Assembly (NCBI GenBank): GCA_004764695.1
Contig: SMSO01000031.1
Location: forward strand, 2,403,048-2,467,047
Reading direction: 5' to 3'
Origin: Schizochytrium sp. TIO01
Taxonomy: Eukaryota > Sar > Bigyra > Thraustochytrida > Thraustochytriidae
Length of the DNA stretch: 64,000 nucleotides
Each line of letters starts with the position of its first letter. Within the stretch, counting starts at the first letter, position 1. The notes beneath the pieces are model-generated. The model saw only the letters and a list, made by a program, of their open reading frames with translations, ran no database searches and had not been told where the DNA came from. Positions 17,412-57,224 of the stretch are shown piece after piece. A program made the position numbers and the translations under genes.

Positions 17412-18065
17412 ATGCCGAGAAACGAAGACTGTAGCATCTGCTTGGAGAAAATAGAGAACAGATGGAGATGCCGCAAGTGCAAACAGAAGACTTGCCTTAT
17501 CTGCTGTATCAAGATTGTAAAATTTGAGGATCGGGGCTCTCGTGAACGCAAAAGTATAAAATACCTGCATTCTTGTCCATTTTGTAGAAATGTTTCGAAG
17601 TGGCTACGCGAGAACTTTTATTATCACTTTTACCTATCTGGGCTTCCCTCAATTACCAACAAGGGAGTAAGGAGCTCATCTGGTGACTCTAGAACGCTGT
17701 CACGTGTCGAAGGGCAGCCATTGAAACCTAAAATTTCATTAAAAAAAAGTGGACGGCGTTTGTCCGCGGCTCTTTCCAATCCTGTTGATGGTCCTTCTAC
17801 TTTTCGCGAGTTCATGCGGAGGCGTCTTGAAGAGCAAATGCTGATGCGGAGGCGTCTTGAAGAGGAAAGGCTGCTGCGGAGGATTCTTGATGAGCAAATG
17901 CTGCGGCGGAGGCGTCTTGAAGAGCAAATATTGATGCGTTCTAGAGATGCTTTGGACCAGAGGAGTCAACGGGAAGAAAGACTTGCCCATATGATGCAAG
18001 TTATCGAACAATTAACGACGGAGATCAATAGTCGATCTGGTCAAGACACCAACGAGCCTAGCTAA
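17412..18065 (+). CDS. RING-like zinc-finger protein with 10-residue repeats
   Basis: The predicted protein has 217 residues and an ATG with G at -3. Residues 7-58 carry a cysteine-only RING-like pattern: CSIC, then W-R-C-x2-C, KTC-x2-C and, after a 23-residue loop, CPFC. There is no histidine, so it departs from a canonical C3HC4 RING. The W-x-C-x2-C arrangement reminds me of compact RING fingers in large DNA viruses, but that is an impression. Residues about 135-175 are four imperfect decapeptide repeats (MRRRLEEQML, MRRRLEEERL and similar), encoded by 30-bp DNA repeats at about 17814-17937, followed by a helical C-terminus. The likely role is an E3 ubiquitin ligase or a protein-binding finger. 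Lineage-specific or viral origin remains open. Confidence 0.65.
   Translation: MPRNEDCSICLEKIENRWRCRKCKQKTCLICCIKIVKFEDRGSRERKSIKYLHSCPFCRNVSKWLRENFYYHFYLSGLPSITNKGVRSSSGDSRTLSRVEGQPLKPKISLKKSGRRLSAALSNPVDGPSTFREFMRRRLEEQMLMRRRLEEERLLRRILDEQMLRRRRLEEQILMRSRDALDQRSQREERLAHMMQVIEQLTTEINSRSGQDTNEPS
17814..17937 (+). repeat. 30-bp repeats inside the RING gene
   Basis: About four copies of a 30-bp unit around GCGGAGGCGTCTTGAAGAG lie in frame and encode the decapeptide Arg/Leu/Glu repeats of the gene at 17412-18065. Confidence 0.85.
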
Positions 18066-18317: not shown

Positions 18318-20501
18318 TTAATTGACGCTCTTCTTAGTGTGCAAGGAAGAAAGGGCGGTCGCAAAACCCTGCAAGAGACTCATAGGGTGCTGCACGTCCA
18401 TAGTGAACTTGTTAACACCAACACGGCCATGCTGCAAGATAATGCGCTTGTGGTCAGGATCGCGGAGGGAATCAACAAGTTGAAAGTTCTTGACACTACT
18501 CCGAGTAACACGACCACCAAAGTTGAGTTGGTAGGCTCCCTTTGCCTTGTTAAAGGTAGGTGGTTTGTTGATCATAACAACAAGATCCTTTGTACTAATT
18601 GACTTGAGCGCCAGAAGCATGGGAGATTGCTTGACTCCCCCATCATGCTTCCAGGCTGCAAATTGGGCGTCATCGGTAATGCCTGGGATTGCCACCTTCA
18701 TCTTTCGCGGACCCTTACTGCTGACGCGGTTCTTCTCATACGTACAGGCAACAAGGTCCTTGGCCGCTCCCTGATGGCCAGCAACATTGTTGTGACAAAG
18801 AAAGGAGGTGCCACCAAAGTTAAGTTCGAGGTGCGCAATAGTGAGACCTGCGGTGTTACCCTGCAACTTGCCAGTTGTGTTCAACTTAATGTCAAAGAAG
18901 GTATGCACGGTGTGGTGGTGTCTAAAAGCAGCAAGGATAGGCGTATTAGAGTCCTCAAGGAACAGGCGGTAGACGTTGAAGTTCACATGCGAACCATCAA
19001 TATCGCGGCGGATGTAGCATTGAACAGTACCAGCATCTGGGTGCAGAGGACGCGTTACGAATGTGTACAGCATGGAACTGTACACACTTGGCTTAAGGTT
19101 TGCCGGAGATGGTGTTCCGGTAAATTCGGGTGCGAAGCCATCACCGTAAGTAATTTTTGGCACCTTGGCCTTTGTCTTCGATTTACCCTGAATGTTAGAG
19201 CCTGTGGATGATGACCGGGTGAATTGAGGGGGCTCAGGTTCGCCGATTTCAACGCGTTCCATATTAGGATCGGGGCTGCGTTCGTGGTTGCGACGCGGTG
19301 CCGGCGTAAGAACCACAGTGCGTTCGCCCTGAAACGCATTAGGGTCAAATCCAGGCAACATCGGGGGGGCACGGAATGCATTCTGCGGGTCAGGGTAAAC
19401 ATCCTTGAGTGGCGTCATGGTGCTCTTGCCATTCGCCAGGCGGACGAGGAGTTCTCCACCCATGTATCCAGCCTGATACCACGCAAGCATCTGTGGTGTA
19501 GTGAAAGGCCCAGTTTCTTCACCCTCTGCACCAACAAAAAACCAGTGAGATCCTCCTCGACGAGTAAGTCTCGGTGCCTCCACAAAAGCAGCTTCGGGTG
19601 ATCTGAACAGATCCCGAAGAATTTCCTCCTCGAAACCTGCATGTTCTCCAAATCCAGTCTCCATAAGAACCCTGGAATCGTCCTTGATATAGGTCCGATG
19701 GAGGCGATCTTTCATCTCGCTCGAGTTGAAAGGTCCTTGTTGGTCTCCAAAGTAGTCTCTGTAAAACCAGCGACGAGATGGCGGCTGCGGCGGGTCAATG
19801 CGACCTCCGAGGAGTTCTTCACGGTACTTCCATAGGTCAATTGAGATGAGCCTCTGATCAGCCTTGAACTTGGCCTCGTTCTGAACAACCGCTCTCTCTG
19901 CAGCTTGCGCATCAACTTGCGGGGGCTGAGGAGGCTGTTGCGGTTGTCCATAAGGATAATCTTGCGAAGAATATCCACTGTACGCCGAGGACGAATTCTG
20001 GCTTGTGTAGCTCTGCTGATGGTAACCGCCGTAGTTCGGGTTGATAGGGGGAGGAGGGGGAGGAGGGGAGGTTGAGGATGCCATATTTTGGGGAGGCTGG
20101 TAATCGTATGCGGTGGTGTGGCCGTCACCGTATGGAGCAGGAGCATGGCTTTGCATCTGGTCCTGTTGGTGGTGGGCCGAGGGATGGCCGTCGCCATAAG
20201 GAGCCGGGGCACCTCCAGACATGGAGTTAAAGGATCCATAGTTCACACCAGAGCCGATAGGAGGCGGGGGGGCGCGGCCTGCTGAAGAGGCACCAGTCGA
20301 CTGCACGTCAGATTCCACGAGGAAGTCGCTCGGGACGAAACCAGATTGATCTCCGAGCTGGACAAAGATCCATCCGGGGTTGTTCGGGTCCTCAGCCTCA
20401 AGGACAGTTACGTGATGGCCTTTAAGAACGGTTAGCTCGCCTTCACCTTCAGCGTGAAAGTCGTCGTCCACGACATACATTTTGCCGACTTCGAGCGGCA
20501 T
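18318..20501 (-). CDS. SH3-GYF-GYF-Tubby multidomain adaptor
   Basis: The predicted protein has 727 residues, counted from the first ATG; the open frame runs 12 codons further upstream to a GTG. Residues about 6-64 form an SH3 domain (hydrophobic core, PGWIFVQ, SGFVPSDFL). Residues about 77-195 are rich in Pro, Gln, Tyr and Gly, with a duplicated PAPYGDGH and PPPPPP runs. Two GYF-type domains follow: RRWFYRDYFGDQQGPF (about 243-305) and a more canonical WFF...GPFTTPQMLAWYQAGY (about 318-370). Residues about 474-727 are a full Tubby C-terminal domain: VQCYIRRD, YEKNRVSSKGPRKMKV, LNFGGRVTRSSVKNFQLV and a C-terminal FTMDVQHPMSLLQGFATAL. Tubby domains bind phosphoinositides, and SH3 and GYF domains bind proline-rich peptides, so a membrane-tethered adaptor is likely. 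I know of no described protein with this domain order. It is convergent with the RING gene, 252 bp away. Confidence 0.93.
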   Translation of the reverse strand: MPLEVGKMYVVDDDFHAEGEGELTVLKGHHVTVLEAEDPNNPGWIFVQLGDQSGFVPSDFLVESDVQSTGASSAGRAPPPPIGSGVNYGSFNSMSGGAPAPYGDGHPSAHHQQDQMQSHAPAPYGDGHTTAYDYQPPQNMASSTSPPPPPPPINPNYGGYHQQSYTSQNSSSAYSGYSSQDYPYGQPQQPPQPPQVDAQAAERAVVQNEAKFKADQRLISIDLWKYREELLGGRIDPPQPPSRRWFYRDYFGDQQGPFNSSEMKDRLHRTYIKDDSRVLMETGFGEHAGFEEEILRDLFRSPEAAFVEAPRLTRRGGSHWFFVGAEGEETGPFTTPQMLAWYQAGYMGGELLVRLANGKSTMTPLKDVYPDPQNAFRAPPMLPGFDPNAFQGERTVVLTPAPRRNHERSPDPNMERVEIGEPEPPQFTRSSSTGSNIQGKSKTKAKVPKITYGDGFAPEFTGTPSPANLKPSVYSSMLYTFVTRPLHPDAGTVQCYIRRDIDGSHVNFNVYRLFLEDSNTPILAAFRHHHTVHTFFDIKLNTTGKLQGNTAGLTIAHLELNFGGTSFLCHNNVAGHQGAAKDLVACTYEKNRVSSKGPRKMKVAIPGITDDAQFAAWKHDGGVKQSPMLLALKSISTKDLVVMINKPPTFNKAKGAYQLNFGGRVTRSSVKNFQLVDSLRDPDHKRIILQHGRVGVNKFTMDVQHPMSLLQGFATALSSLHTKKSVN

Positions 20502-27000: not shown

Positions 27001-27203
27001 CCTCCTTGTGCGACTCTGGGTCCTTGCGGTTGGGAATCCAAGTCAAGCTCGCTGACTTAAGGCCATCCATTCGCGCCACGTGAGGTCAGCCGTGCGCCCA
27101 AAACCAACTCCTCACTGTGCAGCACCAGCATCGATCTTTCCCGTTGTATCATCAGACTGTGTGTTAAAATAATCTGAGCAAGGGTGTAGCAAATATCGTG
27201 AAA

Positions 27204-28400
27204 ATGCTGGCCACTAGCGGATCAGGCGACGACAATGCGGTCAACAACAATACCAACAACGAATTTAACAACATAGCCGCTAAAGGCGCAGAAAATGCCA
27301 GGGACGGCTTTAAGGATGTAGATTTGGGACGAAAAACCAGCTCTGGAGGGGCTTCAATCTCTGGAAGTGCTTCAGATAAACTCGCTTCACTCAAGGACCA
27401 AATCAAAAGCGAATTAGCAAGCAAGACTCAGAAATCCGGACCTGATGAATGGTGGGAAGGTAATCAGGGAATGCGGAGCTTACCTACGCAAAAGCAGCCG
27501 CAAGTGCTTCGTATCTTGAAGGGACATTTTGGAAAAGTATACAGCATGCACTGGGCTGGCGATAATAGGCATCTTGTAAGTGCTTCACAGGATGGTAAAT
27601 TGATTGTCTGGAATGCAACTACCACGAACCGTGTGCAAGCAATTCCTCTGCGGAGCTCATGGGTTATGACGTGTGCTTATGAACAGACCCAAGACCAACT
27701 GGTGGCCTGCGGAGGCCTCGACAACATATGTTCGGTATACAAGCTTAGCACAGAGGGTGGCATGAGCGTAACTCGAGCGCATCGAGAACTTGCTGCTCAT
27801 GATGGATATCTCTCGTCTTGTAGATTCGCGGGACCAGGGCAAATTATATCTGCCTCTGGAGACTCCACATGCATCCTTTGGGATGTAGAAACTGGGTCAG
27901 CCCTACATACATTTTCAGACCACGCCCAGGACGTAATGAGCGTGGCAGTTAGCCCAACCCAGTCACACATTTTTGCCTCAGGATCTATTGATGGAACAGC
28001 TCGCATATATGATACACGTGCCAGGAGGTGCATATTTAGCTTCAATGGCCACGAAAGTGACATCAACTCTGTTTCCTTCTTTCCTGATGGTAACGCGATT
28101 GGCACTGGATCAGATGACTCCACGTGTAAACTCTTTGACATGCGGGCATGCCGAGAGATCTCCTCATATAGTGCTGATTCTATCGTATGCGGCATCACCA
28201 CTGTTGACTTTTCTGTATCTGGAAGAATTCTGTTTGCTGGTTACGATGACTTTGCTGTCTATGGTTGGGATGTGACAAAGAAAGACCGGCCAATGATGCT
28301 CAAGCTGCATGAGAACCGTGTCGCTTGTTTGCAAGTTAATCGTGAGGGATCTGCGCTGGGCACGGGTAGCTGGGATACTCTTTTGAAGGTTTCTGGATGA
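27204..28400 (+). CDS. Heterotrimeric G-protein beta subunit
   Basis: The predicted protein has 398 residues. The frame opens at a GTG six bases earlier, and I use the ATG at 27204. After an Asn/Ser-rich N-terminal extension of about 55 residues comes a helix suited to G gamma pairing ([19 protein letters not shown]). Seven WD40 blades then match animal G beta closely: [60 protein letters not shown] and [11 protein letters not shown]. The protein should pair with G gamma and G alpha at the plasma membrane downstream of seven-helix receptors. Animal subunits have about 340 residues, so the extension is the main length difference. The C-terminus is odd: GSWDTLLK is followed by VSG-stop, where the family has a conserved Trp near the end (for example KIWN). 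Confidence in the family is very high. Confidence 0.96.
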
Positions 28401-29826: not shown

Positions 29827-32800
29827 TTACAAGTCTTGCAACGTCAGCTTCGGAATGATGTTCATGGAGTGCAACTCCTGAAAGAGAAGCTTGCAAGCAT
29901 ACGGAATGCTCAATGATGTCAGGTGTGCGCCTGTGCGGCAGTTTTGACAGCGCACAGGATTGGCTAAAAAGCCACACTTTAGGCAGACGTTAGCCTCGAA
30001 GATATCAGACGAAATCATCAAACGCTCAATGAGCAAGTTTGAAGCACCATAGCCAATTAGACAATCACGCTCCATCTCACCGAGACGCAGACCACCATCA
30101 CGAGAACGACCTTCAGTAGGCTGACGGGTCAAAACGGCACGCGGACCACGAGCACGAGCGTGCATCTTATCTGCAACCATGTGTTTCAGACGCTGGTAGT
30201 ACACAGGACCAAAGAAGATGTGCGCCTCCACAGTCTCTCCATTAATACCACTTGTCACAACCTCCTTACCGTGGTAAGAGTGACCATGACGGACCAACGT
30301 TTCTTGGCAAGCCTGTACGGGGTTCTCCGCAAAGGCCGTACCATACTGACGAACACCACTCACAGCACCGGCCTTTGAGCAAATTAGCTCCATCAACTTG
30401 CCAACAGTCATACGACTAGGGAAACCGTGAGGGTTCATGATAATGTCGGGCACAATACCACTATCTGTGAAAGGCATATCGACCTGTGGAACGATGAGTC
30501 CAACAACACCCTTTTGGCCGTGACGCGAAGAGAACTTATCACCCAATTCAATCATACGGACCTCACGCGTCACAACCTTGATGATGTGAGACTCAAATTC
30601 AGAAGAAGAGATCATCACCTTGTCTACACGAGCATCGCCAGGACCCTTGTAGCAGAGCGGCGAAGGTTTGTAGTCACTCATCATGCCGTTGCCTGGTCCG
30701 CCTGCTGATACCATAAGATCGCTGGTGTTTGTAGGCATCTCGCGGTTCACAAGGACACCATTCTTGTCAACAGGGCTGCCAATTTCAATAACACCATCCA
30801 AGCCAACACCAGTAAACTTGCCGGTGGTAGCAGGCTGCCCATTTGGCGCGCAGAACGGCGAGGGAGCAAGGCGATCCATTGTGTTGTTTGCATAAGTCTT
30901 GAGCTGGGTCGCGTACTTGCGCATTACCATACAGCGCGCGAATCCGCGCTCCATGCTCATCTTATTGATGATGATGGCATCCTCAATATCATATCCTGAG
31001 TATGACATAACTGCCACAATAGCATTCTGGCCGGCAGGCACGCAGTCAAAGTTCACCAACTCCAACGTGCGAGAGTGCACCAAAGGCTTGTGCGGGTAGC
31101 ACATGAGATAAAGCAACGTGTCGATGCGCTCTAGCTGGTTCATGCCGATCGTACCGACCGCTTGCTTACCCATAGCGCACTGATAGGTATTACGTGGACT
31201 CTGGTTATGGTGAGGGAAAGGTACCAAGCCAACAACAATTCCCAGGATTGTGAGAGGATCAATTTCCAGGTGAGTTGCCTCACGCATAGTTGCGCCTCCG
31301 CCACCCTCGCCCTCGACATCAGAAAGGGCCACCATGGTGTTGTTCGACTCGTTTACATCAATATACTCGATAAGACCTTGTTCAAGCAATTGGTGGAACG
31401 CCATCGTTCCCTCCCGCAACATACGCAAGTGCTTGTTACGGACCTTACCACGGTGTGTCGCCTGATCCACAAGAATCAACGGGCGACACATGCGACCACC
31501 ATCAGTAGCAATCTGCACAGTAGCCTTATCGCGATTCAGAAAGACGGACACATATTCACCAAGTCGTCCGGCGCGACGAAGCTTACGGAGCTGGTCTGCT
31601 AAAACTTCAGGTTCAGGGGTCAGACCCAGAATTTCACCGTTAAGCATAACAACGTATGCACCTTCAGAAAACACCTCCTCACCACTCAGCAATTTAATGT
31701 CTTCAACACCAAGGCGAAGTACAAGCTTACGGACAGGACCTTCCTCTTCGTCAGAGGTGACATGAGTAAGAAGGGCAAGGTTCTTAACCAAACCACAAGA
31801 CTCACCTTCGGGTGTATCAGAGGGACAGAGCATACCCCACTGGGAAGGCTGGAGAGCACGTGGACCACTGACTTTACGAGTCTTCTCGAACTGAGAGGTA
31901 ATACGTGTCATGTGACCAATGGCGGACATGAAAGACAAGCGGGAGAGCTGCTGAGTAACACCAGCACGTTCCATCTTAAAACGTTTCAAGGACCAGTTAC
32001 CAGTGGAAATGGCCTGTACAAAACCGTTGGTGATAATATTCTGACTCATGTGCTTCATGATGTCAAATGCGTCCGCTTGATTAGCCTTTGCCAGAACACG
32101 CTCCGCCTGGAGTTTGAGCTCAGTGTTAAAACGTTTGAACAAATCTTCAAAGAGTAACCCAAGGAGTTGACCAGCCAGTTCCAAACGTTTGTTACCGTAG
32201 TAATCTTTGTCGTCAAGCATACCAGGGTTAGCATCAGCCTGGCAACACTGGCGCACCATGTACATGAGGTAAAAGGCCTTGTCACGGAAGTCGTAGTTGT
32301 TGACAGGTACATGACCAAGGACCATGAGAGCCAGGACATCCTTTGCCTCATCAGAGCGGTTCGGTGCAGACTCGTCACGCTTGGAAGTACGCGAGAGTTT
32401 AATGTACTGACCGATGAACTCGAGTGCCTGGTCACGTGTAAAGATTCCTGCCCGGGCTGCTTCTTCTGCGGAAGCCACCAAATACGGGCGAATCGTGCTC
32501 GTTCCGGAGATCATGTAGTTGATAAGAAGCTCTGATTCACAGTCCATTGCTTTGAGGACAATGAAGATTGGGATATCAGCATTAATCGAGTTGTGTTTAA
32601 GATAGACGCGGCTGTTCTTGATATAGACTGCCGTACGACTCTTGCGCTCGTGCGTAGAACTAGTGACGCTAGCGGTGGTTTGTTTTTTAGAATCCTGCTC
32701 AATAATGATACGGTTCTTGCTCAGCTGCTCCTGGATGAGAATGACCTTTTCAGAGCCCTTGACGATAAAGTAACCACCAGGGTCATACGGGCACTCCTTG

Positions 32801-33657
32801 AGCTTTTCGAGCTCTGCAATCGACTTGCCACGAAGGCGGCAGCGCGCGCTCTGCAACATGACAGGGATGCGCCCAATCTGCAGCTTACGCTTGCGAAAGA
32901 CACCACGTCCACGCGTGAAGCATACGTCCACATAAATGGGCGCTGCGTAAGTAAGGTCACGAAGTCTGCACTCTTGAGGGGTGACCGTGTAGGTAATGAG
33001 ATTCTGGTCGATCTCCGGCATACCCACATAAACATCCTCATACCGGAGGAAAAAGTTGTGGTTGTTGTCACTGCGGATCTCATTGTTCATCTTTGATGCA
33101 ACAATTTTCTTCATCTCCACCTCCACGAAGTGGTTGTATGAGTCAATATGCTGCTTTACAAGACCACGCACTTTGAGAAACTCAGGGAGAAGTTTCCATT
33201 TGTTCTGAGCAGGAGCTTCGTCCATTGCACGTTGTTTCTGCGTCATGAGCGAAGGTGAAGGTGTCGGTCGCAACAATGCTTCACCCATTGGCATACTGAA
33301 TCCACCTGTTTTGGACTCTTCTTCAACGCCTTGCTCACCATTAACGCCCAAGGAAGATGATGCAGCCAGACTCGCACTTGATATTTTTACGTCTGAAGAA
33401 GACTTTGCATCAGATTCTGTTTCCATGCTAGAGTTTTCCTTCGAACTTGTTACCTCTGCGCCCAAACCCGCGTTTACGGCCTCCTTGGACTCAATTTCCG
33501 TAGGATGAGGGTCCGCATCCACCTCCATCTTGGCATCCGAGGCCACAGGGCCAGCCTCGGCGCCGGCAGGGCGGCCCCCACGGCCGCGACCACGGCCACG
33601 ACCGCGGCCTCGGGCCGCAGGCTGCGGCTTGCGCCGGCCTCGCGAGCCGGGCAGCAT
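29827..33657 (-). CDS. RPC2: DNA-directed RNA polymerase III second-largest subunit (RPC2)
   Basis: The predicted protein has 1276 residues and starts at an ATG. It is the beta-like catalytic subunit of RNA polymerase III, which makes tRNA, 5S rRNA and U6 RNA in the nucleus. Family hallmarks include WKLLPEFLKVRGLVKQHIDS (about 153-172), the active-site acidic motif GYDIEDA (888-894), GDKFSSRHGQKGV (1039-1051), GEMERDC (about 1193-1199) and a C-terminal zinc clamp, CLKC/CQNC (1225-1240). The choice of Pol III over Pol I or II rests on RPC2-type sequence: QCAMGKQAVGTIGMNQLERI, RIDTLLYLM, PAGQNAIVAVMSYSGYDIED and LTRQPTEGRSRDGGLRLG. Human and yeast RPC2 have about 1130-1150 residues. The excess is an N-terminal tail of about 150 residues with an RGRGRGRGRGRG run followed by an acidic, Ser-rich stretch. 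No introns are visible. The gene is convergent with G beta and divergent from ZMAT2. Confidence 0.97.
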   Translation of the reverse strand: MLPGSRGRRKPQPAARGRGRGRGRGRGGRPAGAEAGPVASDAKMEVDADPHPTEIESKEAVNAGLGAEVTSSKENSSMETESDAKSSSDVKISSASLAASSSLGVNGEQGVEEESKTGGFSMPMGEALLRPTPSPSLMTQKQRAMDEAPAQNKWKLLPEFLKVRGLVKQHIDSYNHFVEVEMKKIVASKMNNEIRSDNNHNFFLRYEDVYVGMPEIDQNLITYTVTPQECRLRDLTYAAPIYVDVCFTRGRGVFRKRKLQIGRIPVMLQSARCRLRGKSIAELEKLKECPYDPGGYFIVKGSEKVILIQEQLSKNRIIIEQDSKKQTTASVTSSTHERKSRTAVYIKNSRVYLKHNSINADIPIFIVLKAMDCESELLINYMISGTSTIRPYLVASAEEAARAGIFTRDQALEFIGQYIKLSRTSKRDESAPNRSDEAKDVLALMVLGHVPVNNYDFRDKAFYLMYMVRQCCQADANPGMLDDKDYYGNKRLELAGQLLGLLFEDLFKRFNTELKLQAERVLAKANQADAFDIMKHMSQNIITNGFVQAISTGNWSLKRFKMERAGVTQQLSRLSFMSAIGHMTRITSQFEKTRKVSGPRALQPSQWGMLCPSDTPEGESCGLVKNLALLTHVTSDEEEGPVRKLVLRLGVEDIKLLSGEEVFSEGAYVVMLNGEILGLTPEPEVLADQLRKLRRAGRLGEYVSVFLNRDKATVQIATDGGRMCRPLILVDQATHRGKVRNKHLRMLREGTMAFHQLLEQGLIEYIDVNESNNTMVALSDVEGEGGGGATMREATHLEIDPLTILGIVVGLVPFPHHNQSPRNTYQCAMGKQAVGTIGMNQLERIDTLLYLMCYPHKPLVHSRTLELVNFDCVPAGQNAIVAVMSYSGYDIEDAIIINKMSMERGFARCMVMRKYATQLKTYANNTMDRLAPSPFCAPNGQPATTGKFTGVGLDGVIEIGSPVDKNGVLVNREMPTNTSDLMVSAGGPGNGMMSDYKPSPLCYKGPGDARVDKVMISSSEFESHIIKVVTREVRMIELGDKFSSRHGQKGVVGLIVPQVDMPFTDSGIVPDIIMNPHGFPSRMTVGKLMELICSKAGAVSGVRQYGTAFAENPVQACQETLVRHGHSYHGKEVVTSGINGETVEAHIFFGPVYYQRLKHMVADKMHARARGPRAVLTRQPTEGRSRDGGLRLGEMERDCLIGYGASNLLIERLMISSDIFEANVCLKCGFLANPVRCQNCRTGAHLTSLSIPYACKLLFQELHSMNIIPKLTLQDL

Positions 33658-40458: not shown

Positions 40459-42873
40459 TCAGATATCATGATCAGATGCTGAGTAGCCTTCCGATTCATC
40501 AATATCTTGCACTTGGATGACAAGCTGGGCAAGGAGCTGATAGTACGCAAGAAGACCGGCACCAATATCTTCAGCAACGTTACCCATGATGTGGTAGCGA
40601 CTGCGCACGATGCTTCGCAGAGCACCGAGAAGGAACGCCTGCATAAAGTAGCAGAGCCATCCAAAAGCAGCGATGCCCTCGACAGAGACCACAGACGCAA
40701 AGAGAGCCACCCAGCCCACAAAGAATAACTGTATCAAAGCAGCAACAGAGATCTTGCAGAATGCCACAATGCCACCTCCGGGAAACAAGTTGTTTGCAAC
40801 AATCATCGTTGACCATCCAGGCAAAAAGAATGCCCGAAGGGTCTCATAGTGGGTGCGCGCGTCAGGCACGGTGACGAAGTTGCGTTCAGGGTGTGTAAAG
40901 GTACCGCCCAAGGAGAAGATGAGATCAAAGTAGTGAAAGACACCACCACCAAAGTGCATCTTGAATTCCTTGTGCGAATAGTACCATTCTGGGTGGACTG
41001 CTTGCATAATAAAGCGCCACAGGGCAATGCAGCTGGTGCACATGAGGGCAGTGAAGGGAAGACCAGCGACAATCATTGCAGCTTGCAAAGCACTGAGAGC
41101 ATCAGTCTGGCCACGACCTGCAACCAAAAGAGCAGTTGCGACAGCTCCCTCGGTAACAGACCAGAAGATACGCTGGATGAAGTAGCCATTTTCGTCATTG
41201 CCGTTGCTAGCAAGCTTGTCGACTACAAGAGAACCAGAGTCGGCCGAGGTGACGAAGTAGATTGCGAGAGCGAATACAGCAATCCAGGAGAGAACGTGAC
41301 CAAAGCTGTAGTATGACATAAGGACGTTCCACCATGATGCATTACCAATAGCTGTGCAGACAGGGGTGATGCCAGGGTAGTCGTTGACAAAATCCCAAGT
41401 GGCACTTGCACCAGTCTTGTCAGTGAAGGTAATTGTGATGGGTTCAGTGGGAGGTGCGTAGCAATTGGTGGAGCCAGGGACAAGGTACATGTCGGCATCA
41501 CCGAGGAAGGTTCCCAGCTGGATCACCTCTTCGGCACGGCGGTATGCACGAAGACCAGCACCACCAAAGACGGAGAACCAAGCAAACGCGTAAATCAGGG
41601 GACCAGCGAGGGTGAAGTTAATGACTTCACGAATAGTGCGGCCACGGGAAATCTGAGCAATGAAGAGACCCACAAAGGAGGCCCATGCAGTCCACCAGGC
41701 CCAGTAGTAGATAGTCCATGCATTCATCCACCAGGAGGCAGCACCGAGGCCCTGGTATTGGTCACCATCAATACCACGGCCGTTACCGCGGGTCAATTGG
41801 CCGAATGCATCGGTTGCAAAGAAGATCTCGAGGATGTTGCTTTGAAAGTACCAGCCAACAGATTCAACCATGAGGTTAAGCATGAACTTGGTGTCGTCCA
41901 AAAAGAGTACCAAGAACCAGAGAATGAATCCGAAGATAATTGCAATGACGGAGAGAATACGAATGCCCAAGTCGAGACCAGAAACGACGGAGACAGTAGC
42001 CATGGCTGTCACAATCCAAATGCAAATAACTTGGGCGTTACGGGTACCTTCCTCTCCAGCATTTGCGGTGGAGTCGATAGGGAGACCTGTGAGTCTGCTA
42101 ATACCATCGCACAGCTGAATGGCACCAAGACCAAGGGATGTGCAGACACCAGATACTACGACAACAATACTAAACCCATCAATTGCGTCACCCCAGAAAC
42201 CCCAAATGTACTTGCCAAGCACAGGGTAGAAGCAAGAGCGCATGGTCAAAGGGAGCTTTTCGCGGAAAGCAGCAATACCAGCAACTACACCAATGCAGAC
42301 ATAGCCTGTCCATGCACCAAAACCCCAGTGGTAGAGAGTAAGAGTAATTGCGTGAATGTTGTACTCTGCCACGGAGTGAAAACCGGTGTCGAAGCGGTTA
42401 GTTGTCAGGTGGTAAAGAGGCTCACTGACACCATAGAAGAAGAGGCCAACAGCTACACCAGCGGAGAAGAGCATAGCAAAGTATGTGGGGCCGCTGTAAT
42501 CGGGCTTGCTATCTGGGTCACCGAGCTTCTGGTCGCCATAGAAAATGTAAAGGTATCCCATGAAGAAGAACATGAGCGGAGTAGTTACAATGTAAAACCA
42601 TGTGAAAATATCAGTGATTGCAGCTTGGGCCTTTGTAAGATCTTGATAGGATCCTTCAGGGTCCACCATACACCAGATTGCGATACCCCACAGGACAACA
42701 ATGCCAAAGAAGCTGGTGACCGGGTTACAGAAAACACCCTTGGTAAAAGGGAGGGGAACACGCATTTCACGCATTGGCCATTTTCCGGGAGTATATTCTT
42801 TGGTGTGCTTGAATGAACCTTGCGGCGAGTCGGGCCCTTCCGAGATGTTGGGTTCAACTTGCTCCGTAATCAT
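40459..42873 (-). CDS. BCCT-family (betaine/carnitine/choline) transporter 1
   Basis: The predicted protein has 804 residues from a clear ATG. About twelve hydrophobic segments begin near residue 52. The unwound TM3 region reads FSAGVAVGLFFYGVSEPLYH (about 136-155); BetP has a GMGIG-type glycine motif in the equivalent place. The TM8 signature, YWAWWTAWASFVGLFIAQIS (about 390-409), keeps the aromatic box tryptophans and continues into SRGRTIREVI. BCCT carriers move quaternary-ammonium compounds or DMSP, usually with sodium or protons, often as osmoprotectants at the plasma membrane. The protein is longer than bacterial members (about 500-700). The excess includes an insert of about 70 residues after TM8-9, with cysteines and a GASATWDFVNDYPG segment, probably an extracellular loop. 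The substrate cannot be read from sequence. It is a paralogue of the gene at 54717. Confidence 0.92.
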   Translation of the reverse strand: MITEQVEPNISEGPDSPQGSFKHTKEYTPGKWPMREMRVPLPFTKGVFCNPVTSFFGIVVLWGIAIWCMVDPEGSYQDLTKAQAAITDIFTWFYIVTTPLMFFFMGYLYIFYGDQKLGDPDSKPDYSGPTYFAMLFSAGVAVGLFFYGVSEPLYHLTTNRFDTGFHSVAEYNIHAITLTLYHWGFGAWTGYVCIGVVAGIAAFREKLPLTMRSCFYPVLGKYIWGFWGDAIDGFSIVVVVSGVCTSLGLGAIQLCDGISRLTGLPIDSTANAGEEGTRNAQVICIWIVTAMATVSVVSGLDLGIRILSVIAIIFGFILWFLVLFLDDTKFMLNLMVESVGWYFQSNILEIFFATDAFGQLTRGNGRGIDGDQYQGLGAASWWMNAWTIYYWAWWTAWASFVGLFIAQISRGRTIREVINFTLAGPLIYAFAWFSVFGGAGLRAYRRAEEVIQLGTFLGDADMYLVPGSTNCYAPPTEPITITFTDKTGASATWDFVNDYPGITPVCTAIGNASWWNVLMSYYSFGHVLSWIAVFALAIYFVTSADSGSLVVDKLASNGNDENGYFIQRIFWSVTEGAVATALLVAGRGQTDALSALQAAMIVAGLPFTALMCTSCIALWRFIMQAVHPEWYYSHKEFKMHFGGGVFHYFDLIFSLGGTFTHPERNFVTVPDARTHYETLRAFFLPGWSTMIVANNLFPGGGIVAFCKISVAALIQLFFVGWVALFASVVSVEGIAAFGWLCYFMQAFLLGALRSIVRSRYHIMGNVAEDIGAGLLAYYQLLAQLVIQVQDIDESEGYSASDHDI

Positions 42874-54716: not shown

Positions 54717-57224
54717 TTACACAGACGATGACGTCTTGGTGATCGAAGACTCAGAGCCCTCGCCACCACTTGTGGATTTTGCAGAAGATTCGTCCCCCTC
54801 GTAGTTCTCAGTTTGAATGACCATTTGGGCAAGAACCTGGTAATAGGCGAGGAGAGATGCGCCGATATCCTCGCCAAGGTTACCAAGAATGTTGTACTTG
54901 CTGCGGATTTGGGAGCGAAGGATTGCCAGCAGAAAGCCCTGGTTGAAAAAGCAGAGCCAGCCAAAAGCCTCAATGCCAGGTCGAGCCACAACAGAAGCAA
55001 AGAGTCCAATCCAGCCAAAGAAGAAGAGCTGCACAAATGCAGTAAATAGAATGTTAACCGGCATGTTCTTTTTCTTATGGAAGACACGGCTCATGACAAT
55101 GTAAGTAGACCAACCAGGGCACACGAAAGCACGAAGAGTTTCGAGGTGAGTCTGGGCATCGGGAACCTTGATAAAAGAGCGCTCTTCGTGTGTAAAAAGG
55201 CCACCGAATGACCAGAAGAGATCAAAGTAGTTGAGCACACCGCCACCAAAGTGCAATTTGAATGCATTGAGACTACGGTACTTCTCTGGCTCCTCATCCA
55301 TCTTGATGAAGCGGTAGAGACAGATACAAATAGAGCAGAGCAAAACGGTGAACGGGAGACCGGCAATAATAGCGGCTGCCTGAAGAGCACTGAGAGCATC
55401 GGATTTACCAGCAGAGAGAAGAGCAGTTGCCACAGCACCTTCGGTACAAGCCCAGAAGACGCGTTGGATCCAAAAGCCTTCCTCGTCACGTCCGTTGCTA
55501 GCCAAATGATCCACAACAAGCGAACCAGAATCGGCAGAAGTCACGAAGTAGATCGCGATTGCGGCAACAGCCAGCCATCCAAGAAAGTAGCCGTAATCGT
55601 AGTATTGCATGAGGACATTCCACCACGACATGGTGCTGATTGTAGTACAGACAGGAGAGATACCGGGGTAGTTGTTAACAAAGTCCCAGGTTGCGTTTGC
55701 ACCAGTCTTATCGATAAAAGTCACAGTGATAGGATCGGTAGGTGGGTTGTAGCACTCAGTCGAACCAGGCACAAGATACATGTCAGGGTCACCAAGGAAT
55801 GTACCGAGCTGGATAACTTCGAGAGCACGACGGTAAGCGCGGAGACCAGCACCACCAAAGACGGCAAACCAAAAGAAGGCATACACGAGAGGACCGGCTA
55901 GGGTGAAGTTGATTACTTCGCGGATGGTGCGGCCACGGGAAATGCGAGCGATGAAGAGACCAACAAAGGAAGCCCATGCAGTCCACCATGCCCAGTAGTA
56001 GATAGTCCATGAGTTCATCCAGTCTGCAGTGGCACCGAGCCCCTGGTACTGATCACCATCAATTCCACGTCCATTACCACGTGTAAGCTGGGCAAAAGCA
56101 TCAGTCGCAAAAAAGACCTGCACGATGTTGTATTGGAAGTAACTACCGATCGACTGCACAGCAACGTTGAGAAGGTACTTTGTATCATCAAGGAAGAGAA
56201 TGAGAAACCAAAGCGAGAAGCCGAGGATGATAGCAAGCATGGAGAGAATCTTGATACCAAGATCCAGGCCAGAGACCACGGACAATGTGGCCATTGCTGT
56301 CACAACCCAAATACAGATGATGCGAGCAGTGTTCTCTTGGTCACTGCCGGTCTCAAAGCTGAGGTCGGCAAGAACATTGACACCATCAATAAGCTGAATG
56401 GCACCAAGACCGAGCGATGTACAGACACCAGCAACAACAACTACAATGCTGAAGGCATCGACAGCATCTCCCCAGAAGCCCCAGGTGTATTTTCCAAGGA
56501 TAGGGTAGAAGCAAGAACGCATTGTAAGAGGCAGATTCTCACGGTACGCTGCAATAGCCGCGGTAACACCGACCAAAACATACCCAGTCCATGCACCCAA
56601 ACCCCAGTGAAAGAGAGTAAGGTTGATAGCGTGGCTATCGTATTCCGCATCAGAGTGGTAGCCAGTATCAAAGCGGTTACCGGAAAGGTGGTAGAGCGGC
56701 TCGCTAACACCATAGAAGAAGAGACCAACAGCAACACCAGCAGAGAAGATCATGGCAAAGTAAGAGCCAGCGTCATAAGCAGGCTTTTCGTGGGGAAGAC
56801 CAAGCTTCTGGTTGCCGTGGACAATGTAAACATAGGCCATAAAAAAGAACATAATTGGGGTGGTCACAATGTAGAACCAAGTAAAAATCCGTGTCACACC
56901 AAGCTGAGCACTAGTGAGGTTCTCGTAGGAGCCCTCGGGATCTACCATACACCAAATGGCAAGACCCCAAAGCACTGCGAAACCGAGGAAGAAAGTCACC
57001 GGGTTACAGCGCACTCCCTTTGTGAACGGGACGGGGAAGTGATACTCGCGCATGGGATAGAGAGGAGCTTCTTCATCCATTGCTCCAACCTCTGCTCCTT
57101 CACTATCACTGCCGATGCTGTGAGAGCAGGAGGCGTGAGGACCAATACCAATGGCATCGTTCGTTTCCTCTGCCTTTCTTTGCCTGTTGTATGTAACTAC
57201 ATCGTCTTCATCTTCGCGCAGCAT
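54717..57224 (-). CDS. BCCT-family (betaine/carnitine/choline) transporter 2
   Basis: The predicted protein has 835 residues from a clear ATG. It aligns by eye along its whole length with the carrier at 40459-42873. It has the same TM3 segment, FSAGVAVGLFFYGVSEPLYH, the same YWAWWTAWASFVGLFIARIS aromatic-box signature followed by RGRTIREVI, and the same inserted loop (GTFLGDPDMYLVPGSTECY). Differences are concentrated in the acidic N-terminal tail, which is about 27 residues longer (MLREDEDDVV...), and in the Ser/Thr-rich C-terminal tail (KSTSGGEGSESSITKTSSS). Both tails are probably cytoplasmic and could be regulatory. It likely imports a quaternary-ammonium or sulfonium osmolyte. The pair looks like a local duplication with later divergence in the tails. 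Confidence 0.92.
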   Translation of the reverse strand: MLREDEDDVVTYNRQRKAEETNDAIGIGPHASCSHSIGSDSEGAEVGAMDEEAPLYPMREYHFPVPFTKGVRCNPVTFFLGFAVLWGLAIWCMVDPEGSYENLTSAQLGVTRIFTWFYIVTTPIMFFFMAYVYIVHGNQKLGLPHEKPAYDAGSYFAMIFSAGVAVGLFFYGVSEPLYHLSGNRFDTGYHSDAEYDSHAINLTLFHWGLGAWTGYVLVGVTAAIAAYRENLPLTMRSCFYPILGKYTWGFWGDAVDAFSIVVVVAGVCTSLGLGAIQLIDGVNVLADLSFETGSDQENTARIICIWVVTAMATLSVVSGLDLGIKILSMLAIILGFSLWFLILFLDDTKYLLNVAVQSIGSYFQYNIVQVFFATDAFAQLTRGNGRGIDGDQYQGLGATADWMNSWTIYYWAWWTAWASFVGLFIARISRGRTIREVINFTLAGPLVYAFFWFAVFGGAGLRAYRRALEVIQLGTFLGDPDMYLVPGSTECYNPPTDPITVTFIDKTGANATWDFVNNYPGISPVCTTISTMSWWNVLMQYYDYGYFLGWLAVAAIAIYFVTSADSGSLVVDHLASNGRDEEGFWIQRVFWACTEGAVATALLSAGKSDALSALQAAAIIAGLPFTVLLCSICICLYRFIKMDEEPEKYRSLNAFKLHFGGGVLNYFDLFWSFGGLFTHEERSFIKVPDAQTHLETLRAFVCPGWSTYIVMSRVFHKKKNMPVNILFTAFVQLFFFGWIGLFASVVARPGIEAFGWLCFFNQGFLLAILRSQIRSKYNILGNLGEDIGASLLAYYQVLAQMVIQTENYEGDESSAKSTSGGEGSESSITKTSSSV

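Follow-up and report, generated by a model that had tools for sequence, protein, structure and literature searches.

A thraustochytrid protein family joining SH3 and tandem GYF domains to a Tub domain with a replaced K330/R332 pair

Plant F-box tubby-like proteins (TLPs) are modular and end in a C-terminal Tub domain, as does the thraustochytrid protein described here, and Tub domains in general are commonly treated as PI(4,5)P2 readers. The tubby domain of mouse serves as a PI(4,5)P2 biosensor (PMC10445746). The PI(4,5)P2 pocket of mouse tubby includes K330 and R332, and binding is weakened by R332H and by KR330/332AA (PMC10445746, PMC6366083); R332H lowers the affinity, while K330A/R332A lowers it still further and almost entirely abolishes membrane clustering (PMC10445746). 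A second PI(4,5)P2 site was located at residues 301-305, and Y343F left the affinity without substantial change (PMC10445746). In TLPs an F-box is combined with a K/R lipid site, e.g. K187/R189 in AtTLP3 and K190/R192 in MdTLP7 (PMC6366083). GYF domains have the signature GPF-x4-[MVI]-x2-W-x3-GYF, with SMY2-type domains preferring PPG-phi motifs (PMC12249416); in PSIG1, the Y575A and W570A/Y575A mutations abolished GYF binding (PMC5657617).

The window considered here is a stretch of 64,000 nt from the genome of Schizochytrium sp. TIO01, in which an Rfam scan gave 0 matches. A frame running from 20501 to 18318 on the minus strand, intron-free and uninterrupted by stops, encodes a protein (P0001) with the following features.

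18318..20501, minus strand: single-exon gene encoding the SH3-GYF-GYF-Tub protein, 727 codons plus stop
20310..20489, minus strand: SH3 domain, residues about 5-64
19917..20303, minus strand: Pro/Tyr/Gln-rich linker, mostly disordered, with polyproline runs, residues 67-195 (pLDDT and motif list)
19812..19910, minus strand: predicted long helix ahead of GYF1, residues 198-230 (pLDDT about 70-84)
19773..19790, minus strand: PQPPSR, a motif of SH3 class II type at the edge of GYF1, residues 238-243 (motif list)
19566..19790, minus strand: first GYF domain (GYF1), residues 238-312, signature Trp replaced by Arg (profile, best fold matches)
19368..19556, minus strand: second GYF domain (GYF2), residues 316-378, with signature GPF-x4-M-x2-W-x3-GYM (profile and motif)
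19092..19367, minus strand: second linker, residues 379-470 (pLDDT <50 at residues 398-445)
18321..19091, minus strand: Tub domain, residues 471-727, Pfam match at 488-722 (profile and fold)
18825..18833, minus strand: His-Leu-Glu, residues 557-559, aligned to K330-L331-R332 of mouse tubby (alignment)

The Tub domain scored 169.9 bits against PF01167 (cut-off 27), covering positions 6-256 of the 256 in the profile, and its tubby barrel fold was confirmed. The SH3 domain was supported by both profile score and fold; GYF1 scored above the Pfam GYF cut-off (27.8 bits against 25.7), and the best matches of its putative fold were GYF domains. Thus, the original prediction of SH3, GYF, GYF and Tub in one frame was borne out, with the gene now placed on the minus strand. 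In the structure model the first linker had pLDDT <50 at residues 67-106, 108-117 and 125-189.

Convergent with this gene is a plus-strand frame of 217 aa at 17412-18065, which begins with a RING-like stretch rich in Cys, contains repeats rich in Arg and Glu and had no Pfam match at 0.001. The window also carries a G-protein beta frame at 27198-28400 (plus strand), a gene for the second-largest subunit of RNA polymerase in one frame at 29827-33657 (minus strand) and two paralogs of BCCT (betaine/carnitine/choline) transporters at 40459-42873 and 54717-57224 (minus strand).

Two earlier protein searches had returned eight proteins each, P0001 included. As Pro/Gln-rich words had probably filled the list of 7993 candidates, the later query was limited to residues 205-727; 7990 candidates were scored, giving 503 matches, and the best 120 were examined. 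These 120 were split by score: P0001-P0024 had at least 201 bits and P0025-P0120 at most 167 bits. GYF together with Tub was carried by 21 of the upper 24, while precomputed Pfam annotation gave Tub alone for the lower group, with one additional EF-hand family in P0107. An own-genome paralog, L017 (876 aa), with SH3-GYF-GYF-Tub order was found at a separate locus on contig C6, making P0001 one of two full paralogs of this kind found in its genome. Counted over the best 120 of the 503 matches and the own-genome paralog, the family has at least 25 members: P0001, 23 relatives and L017. A scan of viral contigs for relatives produced one pattern match, which was not confirmed.

In an unrooted tree of Tub domains with 67 rows, where outside proteins were represented by every third of 94 outside matches (32) plus mouse tubby, all 25 members fell on one side of a branch with support 100/100. 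Within the family we distinguished subfamily A (18 rows including P0001, 100/99) and subfamily B (7 rows including L017, 100/98). Three own-genome paralogs had branches longer than 2, and their placement is unsure. Most likely, judging by the sequences, the fusion arose once and was duplicated afterwards.

Both GYF domains were present in 22 of the 25 members and an SH3 match (precomputed, or with E ≤0.01) in 20, being under the Pfam cut-off in five of these (P0002, P0004, P0017, P0019 and P0020). SH3 was not seen in five shorter proteins of 402-533 aa (P0007, P0016, P0018, P0022 and P0023), of which P0016 begins within GYF1, while P0018, P0022 and P0023 do not have the GYF pair. We regard these five as cut records, although P0022 and P0023 may be genuine Tub-only forms. 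The named members include P0002 from Hondaea fermentalgiana, with 69% identity to P0001 over the full length and 93% in the Tub domain, and P0004 from Mucochytrium quahogii, both Thraustochytrida (Labyrinthulomycetes) by the source names in the database. One SH3-GYF-GYF-Tub protein, P0024, came from a 560-kb contig labelled as the chytrid fungus Batrachochytrium salamandrivorans BASA81; it falls in subfamily B next to P0021 (100/99), and we suspect a protist contaminant or a mislabel. As far as named records go, the family is labyrinthulomycete and perhaps confined to this group.

The same records bear on whether the locus is one gene or two. That an error of gene model or assembly fused two genes, or that the gene also yields Tub-only transcripts, is hardly credible. 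It is true that Tub occurs without SH3 or GYF in two members of subfamily B: P0023, a 500-aa MMETSP record labelled complete, and P0022, of 424 aa, from a 97.7-kb contig. Both could be truncated or wrongly joined sequences or else genuine Tub-only proteins, and they concern subfamily B, not directly the P0001 gene. On the other hand, the frame of that gene is free of stops, and its domain order is identical in relatives, including P0004, for which the source is a transcriptome (MMETSP) and which has all four domains, SH3 slightly under the Pfam cut-off. This record argues against separate transcripts, and with the shared order and the second locus, L017, we rejected an artefactual fusion. The predicted single transcript is thus favoured by the four-domain record, while the Tub-only MMETSP record in the sister subfamily speaks against it.

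To compare lipid sites, mouse numbering was taken from the 1i7e chain, with the letters at 330, 332 and 343 used as a check. Of the 96 outside Tub matches, P0096 and P0107 were left out for gaps at the site, leaving 94. The equivalents of K330 and R332 were both basic in all 94 of these vs none of the 25 family members; P0001 has His and Glu. At position 332 we observed E or D in 18/18 of subfamily A and I, Q, T or M in 7/7 of subfamily B, while position 330 is Lys in seven members of A (P0012-P0018) and Arg in two of B (P0019 and P0023). Asn310, which we take to be part of the tubby lipid site, was seen in 91/94 outsiders vs 0/25 members, P0024 being gapped there: it has a deletion adjoining the site, and its alignment in this region is unsure. 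A search for N310 in PMC10445746 and PMC6366083 gave 0 occurrences. Close to the site, positions 303, 343, 344 and 346 have changed, the new residues being fixed or common in the family. His is found at 303 in 21/25, at 343 in 25/25 (in place of Tyr), at 469 in 92% and at 499 in 96% of members, positions where other Tub matches have mostly Arg, Tyr/Phe, Phe and Asp, respectively. Position 302 is Arg or Lys in 25/25, and 303-305 in subfamily A are mostly His, Ser or Gly.

The mean net charge of the whole Tub domain is +10.4 in A, +16.1 in B and +9.3 in other matches; for the region 296-340 the means are +0.6 in A (-3 to 2), +2.6 in B (0 to 5) and +5.2 in the others (1 to 9), with overlapping ranges. 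As the domain is still basic overall, binding of acidic lipids on another face is possible, and the Lys or Arg at 330 in some members leaves a remnant of the basic pocket. Nevertheless, canonical PI(4,5)P2 binding by the Tub domain of the family appears unlikely, and the phosphoinositide-binding module of the original prediction is probably wrong as regards the known site, with the K330/R332 pair replaced throughout.

The genome of Schizochytrium sp. TIO01 shows a Tub expansion, with 16 Tub matches at 15 loci. A motif filter gave frames for 10 of these besides P0001, L012-L015 staying outside further analysis. Among the 11 loci aligned (P0001 included), only L016, a canonical Tub gene, keeps N310, K330 and R332 intact; as other own-genome paralogs also have no such pair, its loss extends beyond the fusion. 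Four paralogs (L010, L011, L018 and L020; grouped with 100/99) have a RING-like zinc-finger stretch ahead of Tub, seen as a RING_2 match under the Pfam cut-off in L011 (7.8e-6), L018 (2.2e-5) and L020 (1.4e-4) and by eye in L010. They could be E3 ligases, paralleling plant F-box Tub proteins.

Of the two GYF proline readers proposed originally, the second keeps its signature and the first is doubtful. GYF2 matches the signature in P0001 from residue 331, with GYM replacing GYF, and its signature Trp is kept in all 22 members with both GYFs. The Trp of GYF1 was found in none of the 22, being Arg in 21 and Lys in one; GYF1 is thus probably not a proline reader. Since this pattern is seen in both subfamilies, it is probably older than the split between A and B. 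An open frame of 260 aa at G000:C6:1031545-1031964 (L024) has two GYFs with 31% identity to residues 242-381 and may be a relative or source of the tandem GYF of the fusion; other own-genome GYF frames, by our reading, presumably resemble GIGYF (C34) and CD2BP2 (C24).

Trp44, together with the Pro and the last aromatic residue of the ligand face, is kept in the SH3 domain of P0001 and likewise in 18 of the 24 other members (pattern search); the SH3 of P0020 is weak (E 0.009) and does not have this pattern. In the SH3 motif ALYDY, one Tyr is Asp in P0001 (alignment by eye). Self-association through the PPPPPP runs, originally suggested as possible, finds no support for GYF2: its class prefers PPG-phi, and the motif list has none in P0001 (PPGV occurs in 2/25 members), so that we rejected this idea. 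A contact in cis between the SH3 domain and the PxxPxR motif at 238-243 is possible. The motif is present at this place in all eight of P0001-P0008.

Considering these observations together, we favour, with a probability of about 0.55, a cytosolic multidomain adaptor that would work through SH3 and GYF2 and have a repurposed Tub barrel. This reading draws on the replaced K330/R332 pair, the Trp kept in GYF2 and lost in GYF1, the canonical L016 kept separately and the 100/100 grouping. The SH3 domain would bind PxxP motifs and GYF2 PPG-phi motifs of different partners, thus bringing the partners together; GYF1 would be a structural or protein-contact module that does no proline reading. The Tub barrel would no longer be anchored to PI(4,5)P2 via the canonical pocket and would bind a different ligand, with a protein as the most likely candidate. 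If SMY2/GIGYF and PSIG1 are a guide, one could guess that the GYF2 partner comes from the mRNA-control or ER-vesicle machinery. A role in the ectoplasmic network is not argued for P0001, since the main text of a thraustochytrid proteome study of this network (PMC12221091) does not contain the terms ‘SH3’, ‘GYF’ or ‘tub family’.

Alternatively, the protein could be a membrane adaptor tethered by its Tub domain, in which a remodelled pocket or a different basic surface would recognize another phosphoinositide or an anionic lipid. The high positive charge of the domain, the Arg or Lys always present at 302, the basic residue at 330 in 9/25 members and the second mouse site at 301-305 (PMC10445746) are in line with such tethering; still, we hold it rather unlikely given the residues at 303-305 and the acidic 332 in subfamily A, as well as the lower charge of the 296-340 region, its overlapping ranges notwithstanding. 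The SH3 domain of p47phox is the model for an autoinhibited switch, and p47phox chains were the best matches of a 20-row profile of the family SH3. In a similar switch, SH3 would stay docked at the PxxPxR motif, where GYF1 begins, until displaced by a competing partner. The motif of P0001-P0008 would suit such docking; the switch is still quite unlikely, as the motif was not found at that place in P0009-P0015, P0017 (P0016 starts after it), P0019, P0020, P0021, P0024 or L017, and the full model, with pTM 0.48, neither shows nor excludes the contact. Very unlikely is the combination proposed originally, in which a Tub domain that binds PI(4,5)P2 is linked to proline readers of two kinds: the Tub identity is clear from both fold and Pfam score, but the basic pair and Asn310 (with P0024 gapped), universal and nearly universal, respectively, in the 94 outside matches, are not seen in the family.

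Returning to the adaptor with a repurposed barrel, we tentatively suggest an extension that the residues themselves bring to mind. The acidic 332 fixed in one subfamily and the His residues fixed or common at 303, 343, 469 and 499 might mean that the barrel was rebuilt from a lipid reader to a new ligand pocket, in which case the protein could be a lineage-specific hub reading two kinds of proline motif and a third signal. A family that keeps the fold while having replaced lipid-site residues and added SH3/GYF domains is a natural experiment on other uses of the Tub barrel, and thraustochytrids gain a testable adaptor family.

The SH3-GYF-GYF-Tub architecture is apparently a real, shared family that was not previously described. 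The original prediction knew of no Tubby protein with SH3 plus GYF; among open-licence PMC papers, judged by titles and the starts of abstracts, none was about a GYF-Tub protein, and none was found with tubby and thraustochytrid together. Relatives with the same order exist in sequence data, and for none of them was a description found. The closest named one, the Hondaea fermentalgiana ‘Tubby protein-like’ protein (P0002), shares the order and the identity given above; it was named after the Tub domain alone, and no description of its SH3-GYF-GYF part was found.

From Tubby/TULP proteins (PF01167; 1i7e, 1s31, 2fim, 3c5n) P0001 differs by the N-terminal SH3-GYF-GYF part and, with its family, by replacement of the canonical PI(4,5)P2 pair. 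An identity as an F-box Tub protein was rejected: no F-box appeared among the 10 Pfam families listed for P0001 up to E 10, and the K/R lipid site of AtTLP3 and MdTLP7 is not kept. On the GYF side, the best solved matches by sequence were GIGYF1, GIGYF2 and SMY2, and GYF2 shares the GYF signature with proteins of the SMY2 type (SMY2, GIGYF1/2, PSIG1), with Met for the last Phe; the marker Asp of this type is Gly in GYF2 of P0001 and Asp in many relatives (read by eye). Unlike SMY2-type proteins, P0001 has GYF domains in tandem, the first without Trp, joined to SH3 and Tub.
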